A stretch of 25,655 nt of DNA from a virus, in IMG/VR virus record IMGVR_UViG_3300010157_000224, positions 1-25,655 of that record, one strand, 5' to 3'. This document shows, piece by piece, positions 3,390-14,139 of the stretch. Position numbers and translations under genes: made by a program. Within the stretch, counting starts at the first letter, position 1. Each line of letters begins with the position of its first letter. The notes under the pieces were generated by a model that was given only the letters and a program-made list of their open reading frames with translations, ran no database searches and was not told the origin of the DNA.

Positions 3390-4286
3390 ATGGCAACCAA
3401 TAAAAGACAACCAAATGTAAAGGGCATAAAGCTTTACAATCTTTTATTGAAGGAATTAGGAGAAATTAATAAGCTATCACCAGAGAAGCAACAATTATCA
3501 ATACAAGCTAGAAGGAAGATAGTTAGCAAGGAGCTATACCCAAAATACAAAGCACTTGATAAATACAATATAAGGTCGGTAAAAGCAGAGCTAAAAGGCA
3601 TTGTAAAAAAGCTAGCACCCGTTGAGATTTGTAACCCAATATATTTGCCCGAAGCTTATTTAAGTTTTGTTGAATACTATGAGATTGATAACCACATTAG
3701 AACTGTGCTACCCGATTGCTTGAATGTTCGTGTCAATGCTGGTGATATTGGTAAAACAAAGATATTCAACACAAAAGGTTATGTTTACTATGATGATGGT
3801 GTAAGGAAGATTATTGAGAATATAAGAACTTTTTTAAAAGACAATGGTAGTGGTAGAGCATATTTTGATGGTATCGTTAAACTAAAGCACAATAAGCCTA
3901 ATAATGGCAATGCTAACAACTACTTTGTGGATTATGTACTATTCATTGGTAACGAACCTTCGGCAAGTGAACAAGGTGCAAACGTAGTGCTAGATAAAAC
4001 ACAACAAAAAAAATCTAATAAAGTATTTGATTACATAGTCGACAAGTTTGATATACTAGAGAAAGAGAAAAAGAAAAGAAAGAGAATTAGAAAAAAGAAA
4101 GCCGAAGTAGAGAAGGCTAAAAGACCCGAAGAGCAAATAAAAAAAATCAATGAAAATATTGCAAAAGCCATAAATTCGTTTAGGGATTTATTAAAATCAA
4201 ATATTATCACTAAAGCGGAATTTGAGCAACGTAAAACCGAATTGCAAAATCAAAAGAAAATAGCCATTAACAAAATCAAAAAATAA
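3390..4286 (+). CDS. Conserved-type phage protein with basic coiled region and SHOCT-like tail, 298 aa
   Basis: Three parts are visible. Residues 1-75 are helical and basic. Residues 80-190 look like a mixed alpha/beta domain (CNPIYLPEAYLSFVEYYEID; DCLNVRVNAGDIGKTKIFNT; GRAYFDGIVKL). Residues 222-245 are almost pure Lys/Arg/Glu, suggesting a nucleic-acid-contacting coiled coil, and 263-286 (FRDLLKSNIITKAEFEQRK) resemble a SHOCT short C-terminal domain. I think I have seen the central domain in other Bacteroidetes phages without a known role. Lying directly upstream of the ParB-like and polymerase-like genes, it could be a DNA-binding partner; this is inference. Confidence 0.7.
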   Translation: MATNKRQPNVKGIKLYNLLLKELGEINKLSPEKQQLSIQARRKIVSKELYPKYKALDKYNIRSVKAELKGIVKKLAPVEICNPIYLPEAYLSFVEYYEIDNHIRTVLPDCLNVRVNAGDIGKTKIFNTKGYVYYDDGVRKIIENIRTFLKDNGSGRAYFDGIVKLKHNKPNNGNANNYFVDYVLFIGNEPSASEQGANVVLDKTQQKKSNKVFDYIVDKFDILEKEKKKRKRIRKKKAEVEKAKRPEEQIKKINENIAKAINSFRDLLKSNIITKAEFEQRKTELQNQKKIAINKIKK

Positions 4287-4321: not shown

Positions 4322-5086
4322 ATGAAAAATGTAAAATTCGCACATCAAGCAATGAGTGCCACCACTAAAGTAGTAGGTCAAATTTTTCAAACTACTAATT
4401 ACAATTTATTTAAGTTAAGGAGCGACAATCGTGATGTTAAAGAAAACATCGTTAAGGAACGTATGATTAGCATAAACGCATACGGGCAACGAGATACCAT
4501 TAAATGCTCAAAGGATTATGTGGTTAGCGATGGTCAACATAGACTAGAAGCTTGTAGAAGGCTTGGAATACCAGTTAGATATTCATTTGAAGAAACACCA
4601 TTGAATACCCAACAATTAGCAGATTTGCAGACAGAGAGTTCAAAATGGAAAGCAATTGATTATACTAAAAGTTACATAGTTAGTGGTAACGAAAACTATA
4701 TCCAATATGATAAATTCATTAAAACATATAAAGAGTTTCAACACTCTACCGCACTATTGATTTTAAGTAATGCTACCAAAAGAAATGGTGTATATGAACA
4801 AGCATTTAAGGATGGTTTTTTTAAAGTAACCAACTCTTTAAGAGCATATAGAAATGCTGATATATTAAGAAGTTTGGGTATATATTATAAAGGTTACAAT
4901 AAGCAAGGGTTTGTGGTAACAATTCTTACAATGGTCAATCACAAAGAATTTAGCCTTGAAAGATTGATGCGTAAAATGCCTAAACGATGTAGGAGTATTC
5001 AAGATTTTAGCAAAACCGAAGACTATCTAGAAGTTATGCAAGATTTGTACAATTGGAAAGAACCTAAAAAAGTGTATTTCATTTAA
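4322..5086 (+). CDS. ParB/Spo0J N-terminal-domain-like protein, 254 aa
   Basis: The diagnostic segment is VVSDGQHRLEACRRLGIPV (residues 67-85), matching the ParB box (DGxHRxxA) that binds CTP in classical ParB and forms the active site of ParB-like nucleases. Residues 100-254 are helical with several aromatic patches, and no clear HTH sequence was located by eye. It is preceded by AAACCATAAA then A-rich sequence before ATG. It is followed 12 bases later by the polymerase-like gene, and the two may be co-expressed. Phage ParB-like proteins can act in partition, regulation or as nucleases; the sequence alone does not decide. Confidence 0.75.
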   Translation: MKNVKFAHQAMSATTKVVGQIFQTTNYNLFKLRSDNRDVKENIVKERMISINAYGQRDTIKCSKDYVVSDGQHRLEACRRLGIPVRYSFEETPLNTQQLADLQTESSKWKAIDYTKSYIVSGNENYIQYDKFIKTYKEFQHSTALLILSNATKRNGVYEQAFKDGFFKVTNSLRAYRNADILRSLGIYYKGYNKQGFVVTILTMVNHKEFSLERLMRKMPKRCRSIQDFSKTEDYLEVMQDLYNWKEPKKVYFI

Positions 5087-5098
5087 AAAAAACCATAA

Positions 5099-5854
5099 AT
5101 GCCGAATCCAAAAGGTTACACCATAGTAGCTGACGAATCTAAAAAAAGGATTTTTGACAAACTTAAAAGACAAAAGGGAACTGCCTATTATCGGCAAGGT
5201 TCTTTTAGTGATGAAATAATTTGGCAAAATAGAAGATTCGTGTTTCCTAGCCCCAAGAAGTCCGTATCGGATTCAATGTGGGTATTTAGGTCGGTTCAAA
5301 GTGATGTACGTCATTTCCTTAACTACAATCGCATTAAAGAGCAAGATAAACTACCAGTCAACTATTGGAATCCTAATTTTCAAACTTACAAAGGTAAAAT
5401 TACGGCTACCGACCTAGACCATGCTTATTGGCGAATAGCTTTCCTTATTGGTGCTATCACCGAGAAAACCTACAAAAAGGGTTTATTGATAAAGGATAAG
5501 TCTATTAGATTGGCAGCATTGGCTAATTTAAGTAGTTCTAAGGACTATCAAGTGGTAGTTGATGGTATTGTAACGCAAAAGACAGTTTCGCTTAAATACG
5601 ACCCTTATTTACACAAAGTCTACAATAACATTCGATTCACTTGTTATGCACACATGATGACAATGGTAGAAATGTTAGGAGATGAATTTATATGTTATAA
5701 AACCGATTGCATATATTACAAGGATAAAAAAGAAAATAGGGAACTAGTGCAAGTGTATTTGGATTCGGTAAGTATGGAATGGAAACAATTAATTGAGCCT
5801 ATTAGACCAAAAAAAGAAGAGTTATCGGACTCAAATCTAATAACTCTTCCATAA
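5099..5854 (+). CDS. Stand-alone family B DNA polymerase palm-like protein, 251 aa
   Basis: Three ordered motifs resemble a family B polymerase palm. TATDLDHAYWR (102-112) fits motif A, D-x-x-S-L-Y, with D105 as the metal ligand. KSIRLAALANLSSSK (134-148) could be a degenerate motif B. EFICYKTDCIYY (196-207) fits motif C, Y-x-D-T-D-S, keeping the second aspartate (D203) and replacing the first with lysine. The helix before motif C (RFTCYAHMMTMVEML) matches in position the phi29-type polymerase helix. There is no room for an exonuclease or a full thumb, since normal family members have more than 500 residues. It follows a ParB-like gene and precedes RecT and a nuclease. Family resemblance was judged by eye. 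Activity is not established, and it may be a primase-like, terminal transferase-like or degenerate protein. Confidence 0.62.
   Translation: MPNPKGYTIVADESKKRIFDKLKRQKGTAYYRQGSFSDEIIWQNRRFVFPSPKKSVSDSMWVFRSVQSDVRHFLNYNRIKEQDKLPVNYWNPNFQTYKGKITATDLDHAYWRIAFLIGAITEKTYKKGLLIKDKSIRLAALANLSSSKDYQVVVDGIVTQKTVSLKYDPYLHKVYNNIRFTCYAHMMTMVEMLGDEFICYKTDCIYYKDKKENRELVQVYLDSVSMEWKQLIEPIRPKKEELSDSNLITLP
5816..5849 (+). other. Perfect 10-bp inverted repeat at the 3' end of the palm-like gene
   Basis: GAAGAGTTAT (5816-5825) is the exact reverse complement of ATAACTCTTC (5840-5849), with a 14-base loop. It lies inside the last codons of the palm-like gene and is not followed by a T run, so it is not a standard terminator. 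It could be an mRNA-stability or processing hairpin, or an operator-like site. Confidence 0.5.
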
Positions 5855-5891: not shown

Positions 5892-6347
5892 ATGAAAAAA
5901 ACTTTTCGTAGCCATGTTTTTGATACTTTTTGCGAACAACTTGAAGAGTTGCATCCAGACTTATCGGAAGCCAAACGTAGGTCTATAAGTACACAATTAA
6001 CTAGCACTTGTATTGCTTTATTGGTAGAAAATGGTCAAAGATTGAGAGAGTTAATTGCAACTACTGTGCTTGAATATGAGCAGCATCGTAACATTTTTCA
6101 AGAACATATAACTTTCATAAAGGATAATAGTAAATTACTAACCGACCACATGATTAAAGAAGGTTTTGTTACACTAGATTATGATAGTGTCAAAAAAGTA
6201 AAATACCTTAAATCAAGAACCACTGTTGTTAGTAATATGTGTACCTTTTTAAATAAATTAAATATTAAAGTATTAGACTTTTACAAGAGAGTGTATAAAG
6301 TTGATATGAATGACCATGAACAAGCTAAACAAACTACTTTATTTTAA
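5892..6347 (+). CDS. Helical hypothetical protein ending in QTTLF, 151 aa
   Basis: The protein is predicted all-helical and soluble, and the last five residues are QTTLF, which fits the sliding-clamp-binding pattern QxxLF at an unstructured C-terminus. The N-terminal part (FCEQLEELHPDLSEAKRRS) resembles nothing I know. An AAGGAG at 5865-5870 lies too far upstream (about 21 bases) to act as a Shine-Dalgarno sequence. Its place directly after the polymerase-like gene makes a replication role reasonable but unproven. Confidence 0.68.
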   Translation: MKKTFRSHVFDTFCEQLEELHPDLSEAKRRSISTQLTSTCIALLVENGQRLRELIATTVLEYEQHRNIFQEHITFIKDNSKLLTDHMIKEGFVTLDYDSVKKVKYLKSRTTVVSNMCTFLNKLNIKVLDFYKRVYKVDMNDHEQAKQTTLF

Positions 6348-6364
6348 TTTTTAAATATAATCGA

Positions 6365-6679
6365 ATGGAATTTTTCTTAAATCAAAAGAGCCTACCAATG
6401 ATACGAAAATGTATCAATTGCAGAGCATATATAAAAGACTATAAGGCTTGTGGACTAATGTTTGTTTATAACGCATACGACTACCAAAAAAAAATATATA
6501 TGAACACTGGCGATAATCTTTATTGCCCTAGACACACCTTTAAAAATGAAGACGTGCTAGAACAAGAAGCGGTAGTGGTAGAGTTTGATAGCATACAAGA
6601 TGCAATGGAAGCAATAAACAAATCAAAAGACGTTAAAGAACATAAAAAAGGCTACTTTATAGACGATGATGATTTTTAA
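6365..6679 (+). CDS. Putative zinc-binding hypothetical protein, 104 aa
   Basis: The N-terminal half carries CINC (16-19), a further Cys (ACG, about residue 29) and CPRH (about 54-57), a C-x2-C ... C-x2-H arrangement that could bind zinc. The C-terminal half is acidic and ends in IDDDDF. The last codons overlap a short membrane-protein gene in another frame (6666-6812). No known family recognised. Confidence 0.65.
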   Translation: MEFFLNQKSLPMIRKCINCRAYIKDYKACGLMFVYNAYDYQKKIYMNTGDNLYCPRHTFKNEDVLEQEAVVVEFDSIQDAMEAINKSKDVKEHKKGYFIDDDDF

Positions 6680-6812
6680 TAAAATATTTCGTGTACTATT
6701 TTTTTTCACAATAGGTGTTCCAATAGGTATTATTTTGTACCTTTTCGGTGGAATAACTTATAGTATTCTAATAACCATTAATAAAATCATCAAACACACA
6801 AAAAAATCATGA
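6666..6812 (+). CDS. Very short membrane protein, 48 aa
   Basis: An ATGATG at 6666 opens a frame of 48 codons ending in TGA at 6810-6812, which overlaps the nuclease start as ATGA. It begins inside the last codons of the upstream gene. The product has one or two hydrophobic stretches (FRVLFFFTIGVPIGIILYLF, residues 8-27, then GGITYSILITI) and a basic tail, so it is probably a membrane peptide with a cytoplasmic Lys-rich end. Exact coupling at both ends is the main support. Its role is unknown; a holin- or toxin-like peptide or a small regulator is possible. Confidence 0.6.
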   Translation: MMIFNKIFRVLFFFTIGVPIGIILYLFGGITYSILITINKIIKHTKKS

Positions 6813-7609
6813 AAAAACCAAATCTCTCTCAATCCGTTTTAAAAGACTACGTTGACTACTACGACCCAAATACCAATGGTTGCGGTAAACAATTATGGTA
6901 TAGGCATTTTGAAAAAATTGCCACCCCACAAAGCGATGTACAAAAACTAGGTGTTTACTTTGAATATCTAGCCACTGGCTACCTTCGTGAAGGTGAGCCA
7001 ATACCAGAGCCACAAATGGTTTATAAAGGAACGGCAAAGGAAAAATTAGCTGCCGATTACGAAAAAGTGCATGAATCGGTTTTACTCTACAATAAAATGA
7101 TTGAAGAGCATGGTATCGAAATTATTACTAAAGGTGAATATATGTTTCACAATGGTTGTAGTGGTATCTCCGATTTAAGAGCAAAATTTGATGGTGAAGA
7201 ATGTATCATTGATTTGAAGTACACATCCCTATTTGACGATAAATTCAGCGAATATGGATGGCACACTGAATCATTAATCTACAAGCCTAAACTTTTATTG
7301 CAACCAACACACTACAAATACTTGGCAAAGAATATTTTAGGTATTGATGATATACCTTTTTACTACTTTATTTTCCATTCAAAAGACCCAGAGAAGGCTA
7401 AAATAATCAAGGTAAACATTGATGAAGCACATATACAACTACACGAGCAATCTTACGTTAATAAGATGAAAAAGTATATTGACTTTCACTACGAAAACCC
7501 CGATAAACTAGAAGCTAGACCTTCTTATTTAAGATGCAAAGAATGTGCTTTTAAAGATATTTGCCCTAATAAGACTAGTGTACCATTAATCGAAGAAATC
7601 TATTATTAA
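6809..7609 (+). CDS. PD-(D/E)XK nuclease with four-cysteine cluster (Cas4/RecB-like), 266 aa
   Basis: The order of motifs matches Cas4/RecB-type exonucleases: Cys25 (GCGKQLW), an acidic residue in the first helix (YFEYLATG, E52), GISDL with D122, the core IIDLKYTS with D135 and K137, QPTHY (165-169, the QxxxY motif), and C243-x2-C246-x5-C252 near the C-terminus. The four cysteines are arranged as in iron-sulfur nucleases of this group. It most likely resects DNA ends to make single strands for RecT, encoded just downstream, analogous to lambda Exo/Beta or RecE/RecT. The start shares ATGA with the upstream mini-gene. DNA polarity cannot be read from the sequence. Confidence 0.85.
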   Translation: MKKPNLSQSVLKDYVDYYDPNTNGCGKQLWYRHFEKIATPQSDVQKLGVYFEYLATGYLREGEPIPEPQMVYKGTAKEKLAADYEKVHESVLLYNKMIEEHGIEIITKGEYMFHNGCSGISDLRAKFDGEECIIDLKYTSLFDDKFSEYGWHTESLIYKPKLLLQPTHYKYLAKNILGIDDIPFYYFIFHSKDPEKAKIIKVNIDEAHIQLHEQSYVNKMKKYIDFHYENPDKLEARPSYLRCKECAFKDICPNKTSVPLIEEIYY

Positions 7610-8237: not shown

Positions 8238-9119
8238 ATGTCAAAAGAACCATCAGCACAACTAGAGTTAACTAGTGAAACACCAATGGCGGTTGAGCCA
8301 AAAAAGAATCTTACTCCTATTCAGCTATTTGAGAGCCATTTACAACGATATGAGAGTTCGGTGCTTATAGACTTACTATCGGAGCATCACATCAAGCCTG
8401 CGGCTTTTAAACAGATAGTTTTAAAAGAAATTAAAAAGAATCCTAAACTACTAGAAGCTTTCGTTGCCAATCCTTCAAGTATGTTTGCTAGTATCTTCGC
8501 TGGTGCTGAAATTGGGCTTATCCCTTCCGATATGCTTGGCGAATTTTACCTTATCCCTAGAACTATCAATAACAAACCAACAGTTACGGCTTTAATCGGA
8601 TATAAAGGACTAGTTAATATCCTTCTTCGTAGTGGTGATGTTACTAGAATACACACCGAAATAGTTTATGAAGGTGATGAATTTCAACCTATCTATGGTC
8701 TAGTTCCTAATATCATTCACGTTCCAAATTTTAATGTACCTAGAACAAATGATAAAATCACGTTTGTTTATTCGGTGGCTAAATTAAAAAATGGTGAGTT
8801 TCAATTTGTGGTGCTATCAAAATCTGATATTAAGGCTATTCAATTAATGAGCAAATACACCAATGATTTGTATTTCAATGATAAGAAAGACCCAATGAAC
8901 TGGATGATAAAGAAAGTTGCAATTATGCAATTATCTAAAATGCTACCAAAAGACTATCATGGCAAACAAGCGGTTGAAATGAATAACCAACTAGAAGGTG
9001 GTGCTATGCTTACCCTTGATGAAGATAATAAGGTTGTAATTGTAGACGGCAAACGAATCGCTGCCACTAGGCAATCTACAATGGCTGGCATTAACGAACT
9101 ACCAGATATTCCCGAATAA
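8238..9119 (+). CDS. recT: RecT family single-strand annealing recombinase, 293 aa
   Basis: Hallmarks of RecT are clear: FAGAEIGLIPSDMLGEFYLIP (split as residues 87-107, with AxxxGLxP and the downstream YLIP), then IGYKGLVNILLRSG (120-133), VYEGDEF (143-149), NIIHVPNF (158-165), and a late W-x2-KK-x-AIMQLSKMLPKD segment. RecT binds single-stranded DNA and anneals it to complementary strands, here presumably after resection by the nuclease upstream. The length is close to that of the E. coli Rac RecT (about 270). The first 22 residues are a flexible, acidic leader. Two AAACCAT-like elements precede the ATG (AAACCATAAATTAAACCATTAACA). Confidence 0.92.
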   Translation: MSKEPSAQLELTSETPMAVEPKKNLTPIQLFESHLQRYESSVLIDLLSEHHIKPAAFKQIVLKEIKKNPKLLEAFVANPSSMFASIFAGAEIGLIPSDMLGEFYLIPRTINNKPTVTALIGYKGLVNILLRSGDVTRIHTEIVYEGDEFQPIYGLVPNIIHVPNFNVPRTNDKITFVYSVAKLKNGEFQFVVLSKSDIKAIQLMSKYTNDLYFNDKKDPMNWMIKKVAIMQLSKMLPKDYHGKQAVEMNNQLEGGAMLTLDEDNKVVIVDGKRIAATRQSTMAGINELPDIPE

Positions 9120-12616: not shown

Positions 12617-13639
12617 TTAACAAATAGTTCCCGTTGCAGTGCCTAATGTGTTTCCACTTAAATTGTATTCGGGGAATCCACCACCACTTGCATCACTTCT
12701 ACAATAAGTATATCCACTTGGATTAGTATAAGGTATAGTTAATGCGTTATCGGTAAATAATTGCGTTCCAACTGTGAATGGTTGTGTAACTCCACCCCAA
12801 TATAAAAATTGTTGTGGTGAAGCATTATCACAAGCATTATTAAACCCTGTTGAAGGAGCAGTACCAAACCAAACATCACCACTAAATACAATAATTGCAG
12901 CAGTTGTTGTGCTTGTAGTCGTACTCGTTGTAGTTGTAGATGGAGTAGTCGTAGTGCTAGTTGTTGTACTTGTTGTTGGTGGCGGTGTTGTTGTGCTAGT
13001 TGTTGTACTAGTTGTTATACCTCCTGTTGTCGTGCTTGTTGTCGTACTTGTAGACGGGGAAGTAGTCGTTGTACTAGTTGTACTAGTTGTTATACCTCCT
13101 GTTGTCGTACTTGTAGTTGTACTTGTAGATGGTGAAGTCGTAGTGCTAGTTGTTGTACTAGTGGTAGACGGAGCAGTTGTCGTGCTTGTCGTTGTACTAG
13201 TAGAAGGTGCAGTGGTTGTACTTGTCGTTGAACTAGTTGTAGATGGAGCAGTAGTCGTACTCGTAGTCGTACTCGTAGTTGTTGAAGACAATGTACCACA
13301 AAGACTTAAAGTTGAATAAACACATTTATCATCTACCACATAAACAAAAGTATTACCAGCAACAACTTCGAAACAAAAAAAGCCACATCCTATGGATGAA
13401 CTAGTTGCGTTCAAAACCAAAAGCAGTCCACTTAAAGTTCCATTAAAAGTAAAGTTGTTGATATTTCCATTTATAACAATGCTTCCAAATCCACAAGAAA
13501 GGCTTTGAGAAGTTATATTCCAAGAATATTTAGTCGTAGCATTGATACTAGGAACATTATTTTGAAACATTGGTATTGTAAAATCACAATTCGTTGCATT
13601 TGTTAGCACAAATTGGATAAGTTCTTTTTTCGTTGGCAT
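12617..13639 (-). CDS. Threonine/serine-rich stalk protein (putative virion surface protein), 340 aa
   Basis: Three parts. Residues 1-116 are a beta-rich, Asn/Thr-rich domain with several Cys (SLSCGFGSIVINGNINNF; CGFFCFEV). Residues 117-246 are a low-complexity stalk made of TTSTTT units separated by APS, SPS, GGI or PPP. Residues 247-340 are a Cys/Gly/Tyr-rich domain (ALTIPYTNPSGYTYC) of the kind seen in phage and bacterial surface adhesins. The ATG at 13639 follows the upstream stop by five bases. Such mucin-like spacers lift receptor-binding tips from a surface and are typical O-glycosylation targets, and the glycosyltransferases beside it make glycosylation plausible. No signal peptide; consistent with virion assembly in the cytoplasm. 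Confidence 0.75.
   Translation of the reverse strand: MPTKKELIQFVLTNATNCDFTIPMFQNNVPSINATTKYSWNITSQSLSCGFGSIVINGNINNFTFNGTLSGLLLVLNATSSSIGCGFFCFEVVAGNTFVYVVDDKCVYSTLSLCGTLSSTTTSTTTSTTTAPSTTSSTTSTTTAPSTSTTTSTTTAPSTTSTTTSTTTSPSTSTTTSTTTGGITTSTTSTTTTSPSTSTTTSTTTGGITTSTTTSTTTPPPTTSTTTSTTTTPSTTTTSTTTSTTTAAIIVFSGDVWFGTAPSTGFNNACDNASPQQFLYWGGVTQPFTVGTQLFTDNALTIPYTNPSGYTYCRSDASGGGFPEYNLSGNTLGTATGTIC
12901..13290 (-). repeat. Imperfect tandem repeat encoding the Thr/Ser stalk
   Basis: About 390 bases read (plus strand) as degenerate GTTGT-, GTACTAGTTGT- and GTCGTACTTGTAGT-like units, encoding Thr/Ser runs on the minus strand. Codons vary between neighbouring units (ACT, ACA, ACG, AGT), so the repetition is stronger at the protein than the DNA level. 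This suggests selection for composition and length rather than recent slippage, although slippage could still change length in multiples of three. Confidence 0.75.
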
Positions 13640-13644
13640 AAATA

Positions 13645-14139
13645 TTAGTCTTTGTCTATTATATAATTGCAATAATCTTCAAAAAAGTTAATGCCTTCCA
13701 ATTCTTCTATATCTTGAAAAGCATTAGTCATAGTTGCATCTAAAGCCGAAGCCATATATTCAATATCTGCAAAGAATTTAAAATAAACAACACTATTTTT
13801 TAGTAAATCAAACGTCAATGAAGAAAAACCATTAAAAAAAATTTCAGCCGAATCGGTGTCATAATATATCGATGGTTGATATTGATATGAGTCTACTACA
13901 AATGGTAAATAGGTTTGTACTTCATTACCAGCGGCATCAAAGTTATTATAAGCAATTGCTTGACTAATTTGGGGATAGTTGTTGGCGGACATATAAAAAA
14001 ATTCAGCACCATATACTTGTGTACCCAAACTTTGTAAAAATTGACTATAAGTAATACCTACTCCACTAACACTTAAGGGCATAGATACACTTATAACTGG
14101 TGTAATTGTATTCGTAACAACTGGTAAATAACTAGCCAT
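13645..14139 (-). CDS. Hypothetical protein, possible structural protein, 164 aa
   Basis: Aromatic-rich, low in charge and mostly beta: SYLPVVTNTITPVISVSMPLS at the N-terminus, then many Tyr and Phe. An acidic helical C-terminus (AFQDIEELEGINFFEDYCNY) ends in IIDKD. It lies one gene from the membrane-protein run and next to the stalk gene, with the stop and the following start five bases apart. The composition and place fit a small virion protein, but I know of no family. Confidence 0.62.
   Translation of the reverse strand: MASYLPVVTNTITPVISVSMPLSVSGVGITYSQFLQSLGTQVYGAEFFYMSANNYPQISQAIAYNNFDAAGNEVQTYLPFVVDSYQYQPSIYYDTDSAEIFFNGFSSLTFDLLKNSVVYFKFFADIEYMASALDATMTNAFQDIEELEGINFFEDYCNYIIDKD

Follow-up and report, generated by a model that had tools for sequence, protein, structure and literature searches.

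A candidate minimal family B-like polymerase palm encoded beside a basic partner protein in an uncultured virus lineage

The stretch of DNA analyzed here (the window) is the 25,655-bp IMG/VR virus record IMGVR_UViG_3300010157_000224, a genome fragment that encodes on its plus strand (5099..5854) a 251-aa protein, here referred to as POL, belonging to a new, previously unnamed protein family. A palm fold is well supported for POL by structure prediction, its residues and gene context resemble those of family B DNA polymerases, and a gene for a basic partner protein, here referred to as PART, lies upstream of it everywhere. We read POL as a minimal family B-derived polymerase that may start protein-primed replication together with PART at the ends of linear genomes, and give this reading a probability of about 0.45. 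A preliminary description made from the sequence alone had proposed the single-domain palm; protein-primed initiation, the partner gene and the inverted genome ends were absent from it and are added here.

The open reading frame agreed with that description in sequence, length and neighboring genes. A first scan of IMG/VR with a degenerate motif C pattern (Y-x-TDCIYY) recovered 21 true full-length homologs, alignment-based scans extended the set to 52 distinct POL sequences, and a later scan added one more (L250), so that 53 distinct homologs are now at hand, all of them uncultured-virus sequences. The aligned homologs measure 233–260 aa and L250 is 228 aa; identity to the window POL is 25–65% where compared. 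The 52 full-length homologs, dN/dS values of 0.015–0.16 in 12 close pairs and the invariance of D105, K134 and D203 (52/52) together place the open reading frame beyond chance. Because every homolog is a complete short open reading frame and the flanking genes are unrelated, the idea that POL is a full-length polymerase cut short by a frameshift or truncation was rejected. Three further candidates were discarded as chance matches, namely L024 and L025, which fit the motif pattern, and L066 on a Chloroflexi genome contig, which is a cytochrome c oxidase II. No relative of the family was found in Pfam, PHROGs, NCBIfam or PDB sequences, and single-sequence searches with POL against GenBank phages, plasmids, IMG/VR and GTDB returned zero matches. 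Since GenBank phages held no homolog of either the window POL or the divergent members tested, the carriers of POL are uncultured as far as these collections show. The most divergent member, L085, is 25% identical to the window POL and is encoded on a 146-kb contig (G023); its motif A, YDINHAYW, is the nearest to the PolB consensus, and a DnaB helicase gene lies about 6 kb from it.

AlphaFold2 prediction from the single POL sequence was uninformative (pLDDT 36), whereas prediction with 52 homologs gave a confident model (pLDDT 84.9, pTM 0.72). In this model, an N-terminal alpha/beta region of about 95 aa (5099..5383, plus strand; conserved F63, V66 and N91) precedes the motif A strand (residues 101–106), which is followed by the motif B helix (134–145), a beta hairpin, a long helix (169–196), the motif C hairpin (197–208, with strands 197–201 and 204–208) and a last strand (228–232) carrying K229-Q-L. 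When the model was compared with the PDB by Foldseek, the best 50 matches were polymerase-type entries, mostly of family B (Pol alpha, Pol II, Dpo1, KOD/Tgo variants and Pol epsilon or replisome entries), the remainder being reverse transcriptases, TERT and one herpes helicase-primase entry. Scores were modest (E values from 8e-4 to 0.09), with low TM-scores of 0.2–0.5. Among viral models in BFVD, the top matches included divergent family B polymerases at a probability of 1.00 and also several UL8-type subunits of herpesvirus helicase-primases. The proposal of a family B-like single-domain palm is thus supported by the confident model, the Foldseek matches and the order of the motifs; the predicted fold is palm-like rather than another fold, and unrelated families gave no clear match. 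The suggested lack of an exonuclease and a thumb likewise agrees with the model, where the stretch ahead of motif A spans only about 95 residues and about 20 follow K229-Q-L. The N-terminal region is too short for a 3′-5′ exonuclease domain, and the 251 residues leave no room for that domain, a thumb or the TPR1 and TPR2 subdomains.

Profile comparison was less decisive. An hhalign alignment of the POL family with 14 phage family B polymerases brought motif C into register and scored above 100 column shuffles, but the same profile set against 58 gene clusters from the same genomes gave equal or higher scores for unrelated genes, among them those for glycosyltransferases and RecT. No match was obtained when the POL family was aligned with the phi29 or PRD1 polymerase singly. 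As the profile similarity is not significant against these genome-wide controls, homology of the POL family to family B rests on structure together with the motifs and their order. POL is like a protein-primed family B polymerase in context and residues, yet lacks the full pair of motif C aspartates, an exonuclease, a thumb and a significant profile match.

The family alignment was then used to assess the conservation of active-site residues. Motif A, T104-D105-L-D-H-A-Y110-W-R-I-A114 (5408..5440, plus strand; D105 codon 5411–5413), is present as originally read, with D105, A109, W111 and A114 each conserved in 52/52 sequences and residue 110 being Y or F in all 52. Motif B had been placed at residues 143–148 (NLSSSK), a segment that proved not to be conserved; the conserved element is instead the preceding helix K134-x2-R137-L-A-x-L141-x2-L144-[G/S]145 (5498..5533, plus strand; S145 in the window), which coincides with the predicted helix 134–145. 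Here K134 is invariant (52/52), R or K occupies position 137 in 51/52 and the L-[G/S]145 ending is kept, with G in 41/52; the N and Y of the PolB motif B (Kx3NSxYG) are missing in the family. Motif C forms the hairpin Y200-K201-T-D203-C-I-Y-Y207 (5696..5719, plus strand; K201 codon 5699–5701, D203 codon 5705–5707), in which D203 and C204 are invariant (52/52). The observation that the second aspartate of this motif is kept and the first replaced by lysine turned out to describe a trait of the family: position 201 is K in 34, R in 15, N in 3 and D in none of the 52 sequences, a count in which the first scan pattern also admitted D, E, N, T or A at this position and all 21 true matches had K, while later patterns favored K or R. 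Finally, K229-Q-L (5783..5791, plus strand), lying on the predicted strand 228–232 and with K or R at its first position in 52/52, is a candidate counterpart of KxY, the motif with which the palm ends.

In the RB69 polymerase, the catalytic triad consists of D411, D621 and D623, and the D411A variant is dead (PMC3792054); family B polymerases share D623 and Y416, which are D458 and Y254 in phi29 (PMC3799440). By motif alignment, D105 and D203 of POL would correspond to D411 and D623, K201 would stand at the position of D621, and Y/F110 at that of Y416 (phi29 Y254). One of the three catalytic aspartates is thus lost in POL and the other two are invariant.

PART (3390..4286, plus strand) is a basic protein of 298 aa (pI 9.8) with a SHOCT-like C-terminus and is a candidate terminal protein. 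Each of the 52 loci, as well as that of L250, has a PART-type gene just upstream of POL, and the PART homologs are about 300 aa in length with a pI of 9.4–10. Residue T123 hardly varies in the PART alignment. The match of the PART C-terminus to Pfam SHOCT was below the cut-off, and no relation of PART to known terminal proteins was detectable. PART was also considered as the missing exonuclease, an idea that was dropped as motif and profile support were both absent. In the window only, a ParB-like gene (4322..5086, plus strand; phrog_12305, E = 2e-30) lies between PART and POL, and elsewhere one or two small open reading frames intervene in a few loci. Downstream of POL follow, all on the plus strand, a gene at 5892..6347 whose synteny holds across the subclade nearest to the window (cluster 24, 11 loci), a small gene at 6365..6679 (cluster 17, 14 loci), and, in the same module, a Cas4/exonuclease-like PD-(D/E)XK nuclease gene (6809..7609; Pfam PDDEXK_1, E = 1.5e-4) and a gene for a RecT single-strand annealing protein (8238..9119; Pfam RecT, E = 3e-27), each found in 38/52 loci. 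Elsewhere in the window, positions 1721–2545 encode a TAGT/phrog_842 glycosyltransferase (Pfam E = 1e-31) of the type that glucosylates modified DNA bases, and positions 12617–13672 encode a protein with long Thr/Ser-rich repeats (TTSTTTSTTT...), overlapped by a long antisense open reading frame.

Inverted terminal repeats (ITRs) were found in 5/35 related contigs and direct terminal repeats (DTRs) in 0/35. The 74.1-kb contig G006 has an exact ITR of 653 bp, and G010, G017, G019 and G021 have ITRs of 123–127 bp, a length typical of assembler overlaps and therefore implying longer true repeats; G016, another record of the virus represented by G017, extends the G017 repeat to at least 489 bp. 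End sequences of the relatives' contigs are also similar to both ends of one another's contigs. The contigs closest to the window (G001, G002 and G004) showed no complete ITR, and their cross-end similarity was limited to 73 bp at 77%. Across the whole of IMG/VR few contigs have ITRs, 624 against 15,211 with DTRs, and metagenomic ITRs can be artefacts (PMC8116208). Among 20 control contigs (18 tailed relatives of Flavobacterium phages and 2 others), 0 had an ITR and 1 had a DTR, a difference from the 5/35 that is not significant at these numbers (Fisher p = 0.17, computed with a denominator of 43 in place of the 35 distinct contigs), and our argument consequently uses the IMG/VR-wide ratio of ITRs to DTRs. 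In 22/23 contigs the POL cassette lies at a distance of 1–24 kb from one end of the contig and is oriented inward, the exception being the L032–L034 subclade (G005). The window contig is a fragment, and inverted ends of its own virus are what we infer from these relatives. Contigs G006 and G008 both begin with CAGTAT, possibly a shared true terminus, although two cases are compatible with chance.

A search for other replication genes with Pfam models found PF03175, PF00476 and PF07733 in 0/23 contigs of 53–146 kb, which may be incomplete, and PF00136 in 0/50 contigs; control genomes were positive in each search, although in the case of PF03175 their scores fell short of the curated cut-off. 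The POL-bearing contigs thus contain no Pfam-detectable PolA, PolB or Pol III, and they may encode a polymerase that has diverged beyond the reach of Pfam models. A DnaB-type helicase was present in G023 only (1/23). All 23 larger contigs (G001–G023) encode a P-loop ATPase of about 275 aa (GKKGVGKS, LLLIEDIN) that by eye resembles HerA/FtsK-A32 packaging ATPases, and the common tailed-phage terminase phrog_2 was found in none of them. This ATPase, the absence of phrog_2, the inverted ends and many small membrane-anchored proteins suggest a large, perhaps tailless, uncultured virus lineage. Its hosts are probably Bacteroidota. Adjoining the ATPase is a conserved family (A7; L102:17051-17839 and homologs) of about 230–260 aa, beta-rich by eye and a candidate capsid protein, for which no database match was found. 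Other genes observed in these genomes were a 1229-aa polyvalent protein (G006:C1:56003-59692) with matches to ART-PolyVal ADP-ribosyltransferase, DUF5661 and acetyltransferase, a conserved AAA+ ATPase (L105:14093-15451) matching the PHROG 'porphyrin biosynthesis' (CobS-like), and a conserved gene adjoining the latter (L105:15451-16998), one homolog of which weakly matches DUF7192.

The closest parallels to this arrangement are the protein-primed polymerases of phi29 (p2), PRD1 (P1), Cp-1, Av-1 and asccphi28. These share with POL, in the same order, the motif A D-x2-[SH]-A-[YF], a motif B K/R helix ending in L-G, the second motif C aspartate and the K of KxY; in all five the terminal-protein gene lies directly upstream of PolB, as PART precedes POL, and phi29-type phages resemble the POL viruses in their linear genomes, inverted ends and a polymerase gene near the genome end. 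Known protein-primed polymerases use thumb, exonuclease and TPR subdomains. In contrast, POL is less than half the length of the phi29-type enzymes, lacks an exonuclease, a thumb and room for TPR1 and TPR2, has K, R or N in place of the first motif C aspartate, is missing the N and Y of motif B and shows no significant sequence similarity to them, and the POL viruses have genomes of 53–146 kb compared to 12–20 kb in phi29-type phages. The halosphaeroviruses SH1, PH1 and HHIV-2 are similar to the POL viruses in having a linear genome, inverted terminal repeats and no recognized polymerase gene, but they are archaeal, have genomes of about 30 kb and possess demonstrated terminal proteins. To our knowledge, no mini-palm has been reported from them.

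Given the ITRs, the constant basic partner and the lack of a Pfam polymerase, the genomic context points to protein-primed initiation. We infer catalysis by POL, a terminal-protein role for PART, protein priming and hand-off, in a scheme that would run as follows. POL may be a drastically reduced, family B-derived DNA polymerase, consisting of a palm with a short motif B helix and without exonuclease or thumb, in which D105 and D203 probably bind the catalytic metals. It would probably attach the first nucleotide or nucleotides to a PART hydroxyl group at the ends of the genome, with elongation carried out by the POL–PART complex or handed off to a host polymerase, while the nuclease and RecT may support recombination.

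The residues that speak against an active POL are the first motif C aspartate, a member of the RB69 triad (D621; PMC3792054) that is K, R or N in POL, and the missing N and Y of motif B. It is conceivable, if rather unlikely, that POL is instead a catalytically inactive family B palm serving as a scaffold that binds PART, the DNA ends or a host polymerase, in the manner of UL8 in the primosome of herpesviruses. Such a role would fit the replacement at position 201 in 52/52 sequences, the lack of a thumb and exonuclease and the herpesvirus helicase-primase subunits among the BFVD matches, and there is precedent in UL8, an inactivated family B polymerase of a kind that often remains in replication complexes (PMC8187027, PMC4304020). 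Both UL8 and the chordopoxvirus protein F12 are, like POL, divergent family B palms occurring as non-canonical viral proteins. However, they are much longer, and the motif A aspartate and/or the second motif C aspartate, invariant in POL, are lost there: UL8 has lost both of these and KKRY, and in F12 most catalytic residues of the palm are gone (PMC8187027, PMC4304020). POL, by comparison, keeps D105, D203, Y/F110, K134, R/K137 and K/R229 across 25–65% identity. Without metal binding, the invariance of the two aspartates would be difficult to account for, and these aspartates, together with the Y/F110 gate and the basic residues at 134, 137 and 229, argue against a simple dead relative. On the basis of the alignment, their conservation where UL8 and F12 have lost them favors D105 and D203 as retained metal binders, but is no proof of catalysis.

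POL could also be active as a primase or as a short-patch or terminal transferase-like palm that makes RNA or DNA primers or patches ends as in linear Streptomyces replicons, with a host replicase performing all genome synthesis. Its small size without processivity parts, the 22/23 contigs lacking a DnaB-type helicase and the lack of a Pfam polymerase are in line with this, and for the halosphaeroviruses, with terminal proteins and no known polymerase, a host polymerase with end patching has been suggested (PMC3622292). We regard this as improbable for POL, as the constant PART and the inverted ends fit protein priming more simply and Y/F110 resembles the sugar gate of a DNA polymerase, not a ribonucleotide-accepting site. 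A function outside replication (in RecT recombination, packaging, regulation or host takeover), with the palm likeness distant or convergent, would agree with the adjoining nuclease and RecT genes and with a profile similarity to family B that is not significant against controls; it seems very improbable in view of the confident palm-like model, the top PDB matches, which are all polymerase-type entries, and the finding that residues of active-site type are the most conserved in POL.

Within the preferred reading of POL as a minimal polymerase that initiates on PART, the strongest form would be that this palm-only protein of about 240 residues, with a K/R-T-D motif C and priming on PART, is the only polymerase encoded by the members of a large, uncultured phage lineage whose linear genomes measure 60–100 kb, and so the smallest family B-type replicase and a new form of protein priming; we consider this version doubtful. 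If POL is active, it would reveal the degree of reduction that a family B polymerase tolerates while still being able to initiate DNA synthesis, and would indicate that a pair of catalytic aspartates can be enough when a basic residue replaces the third of the triad. The PART–POL pair is small and thus directly testable. An active POL would also offer a candidate answer to the question, raised for halosphaeroviruses (PMC3622292), of how ITR viruses that have terminal proteins and no recognized polymerase replicate their genomes, and small palm proteins without database matches may be worth seeking in those viruses as well.
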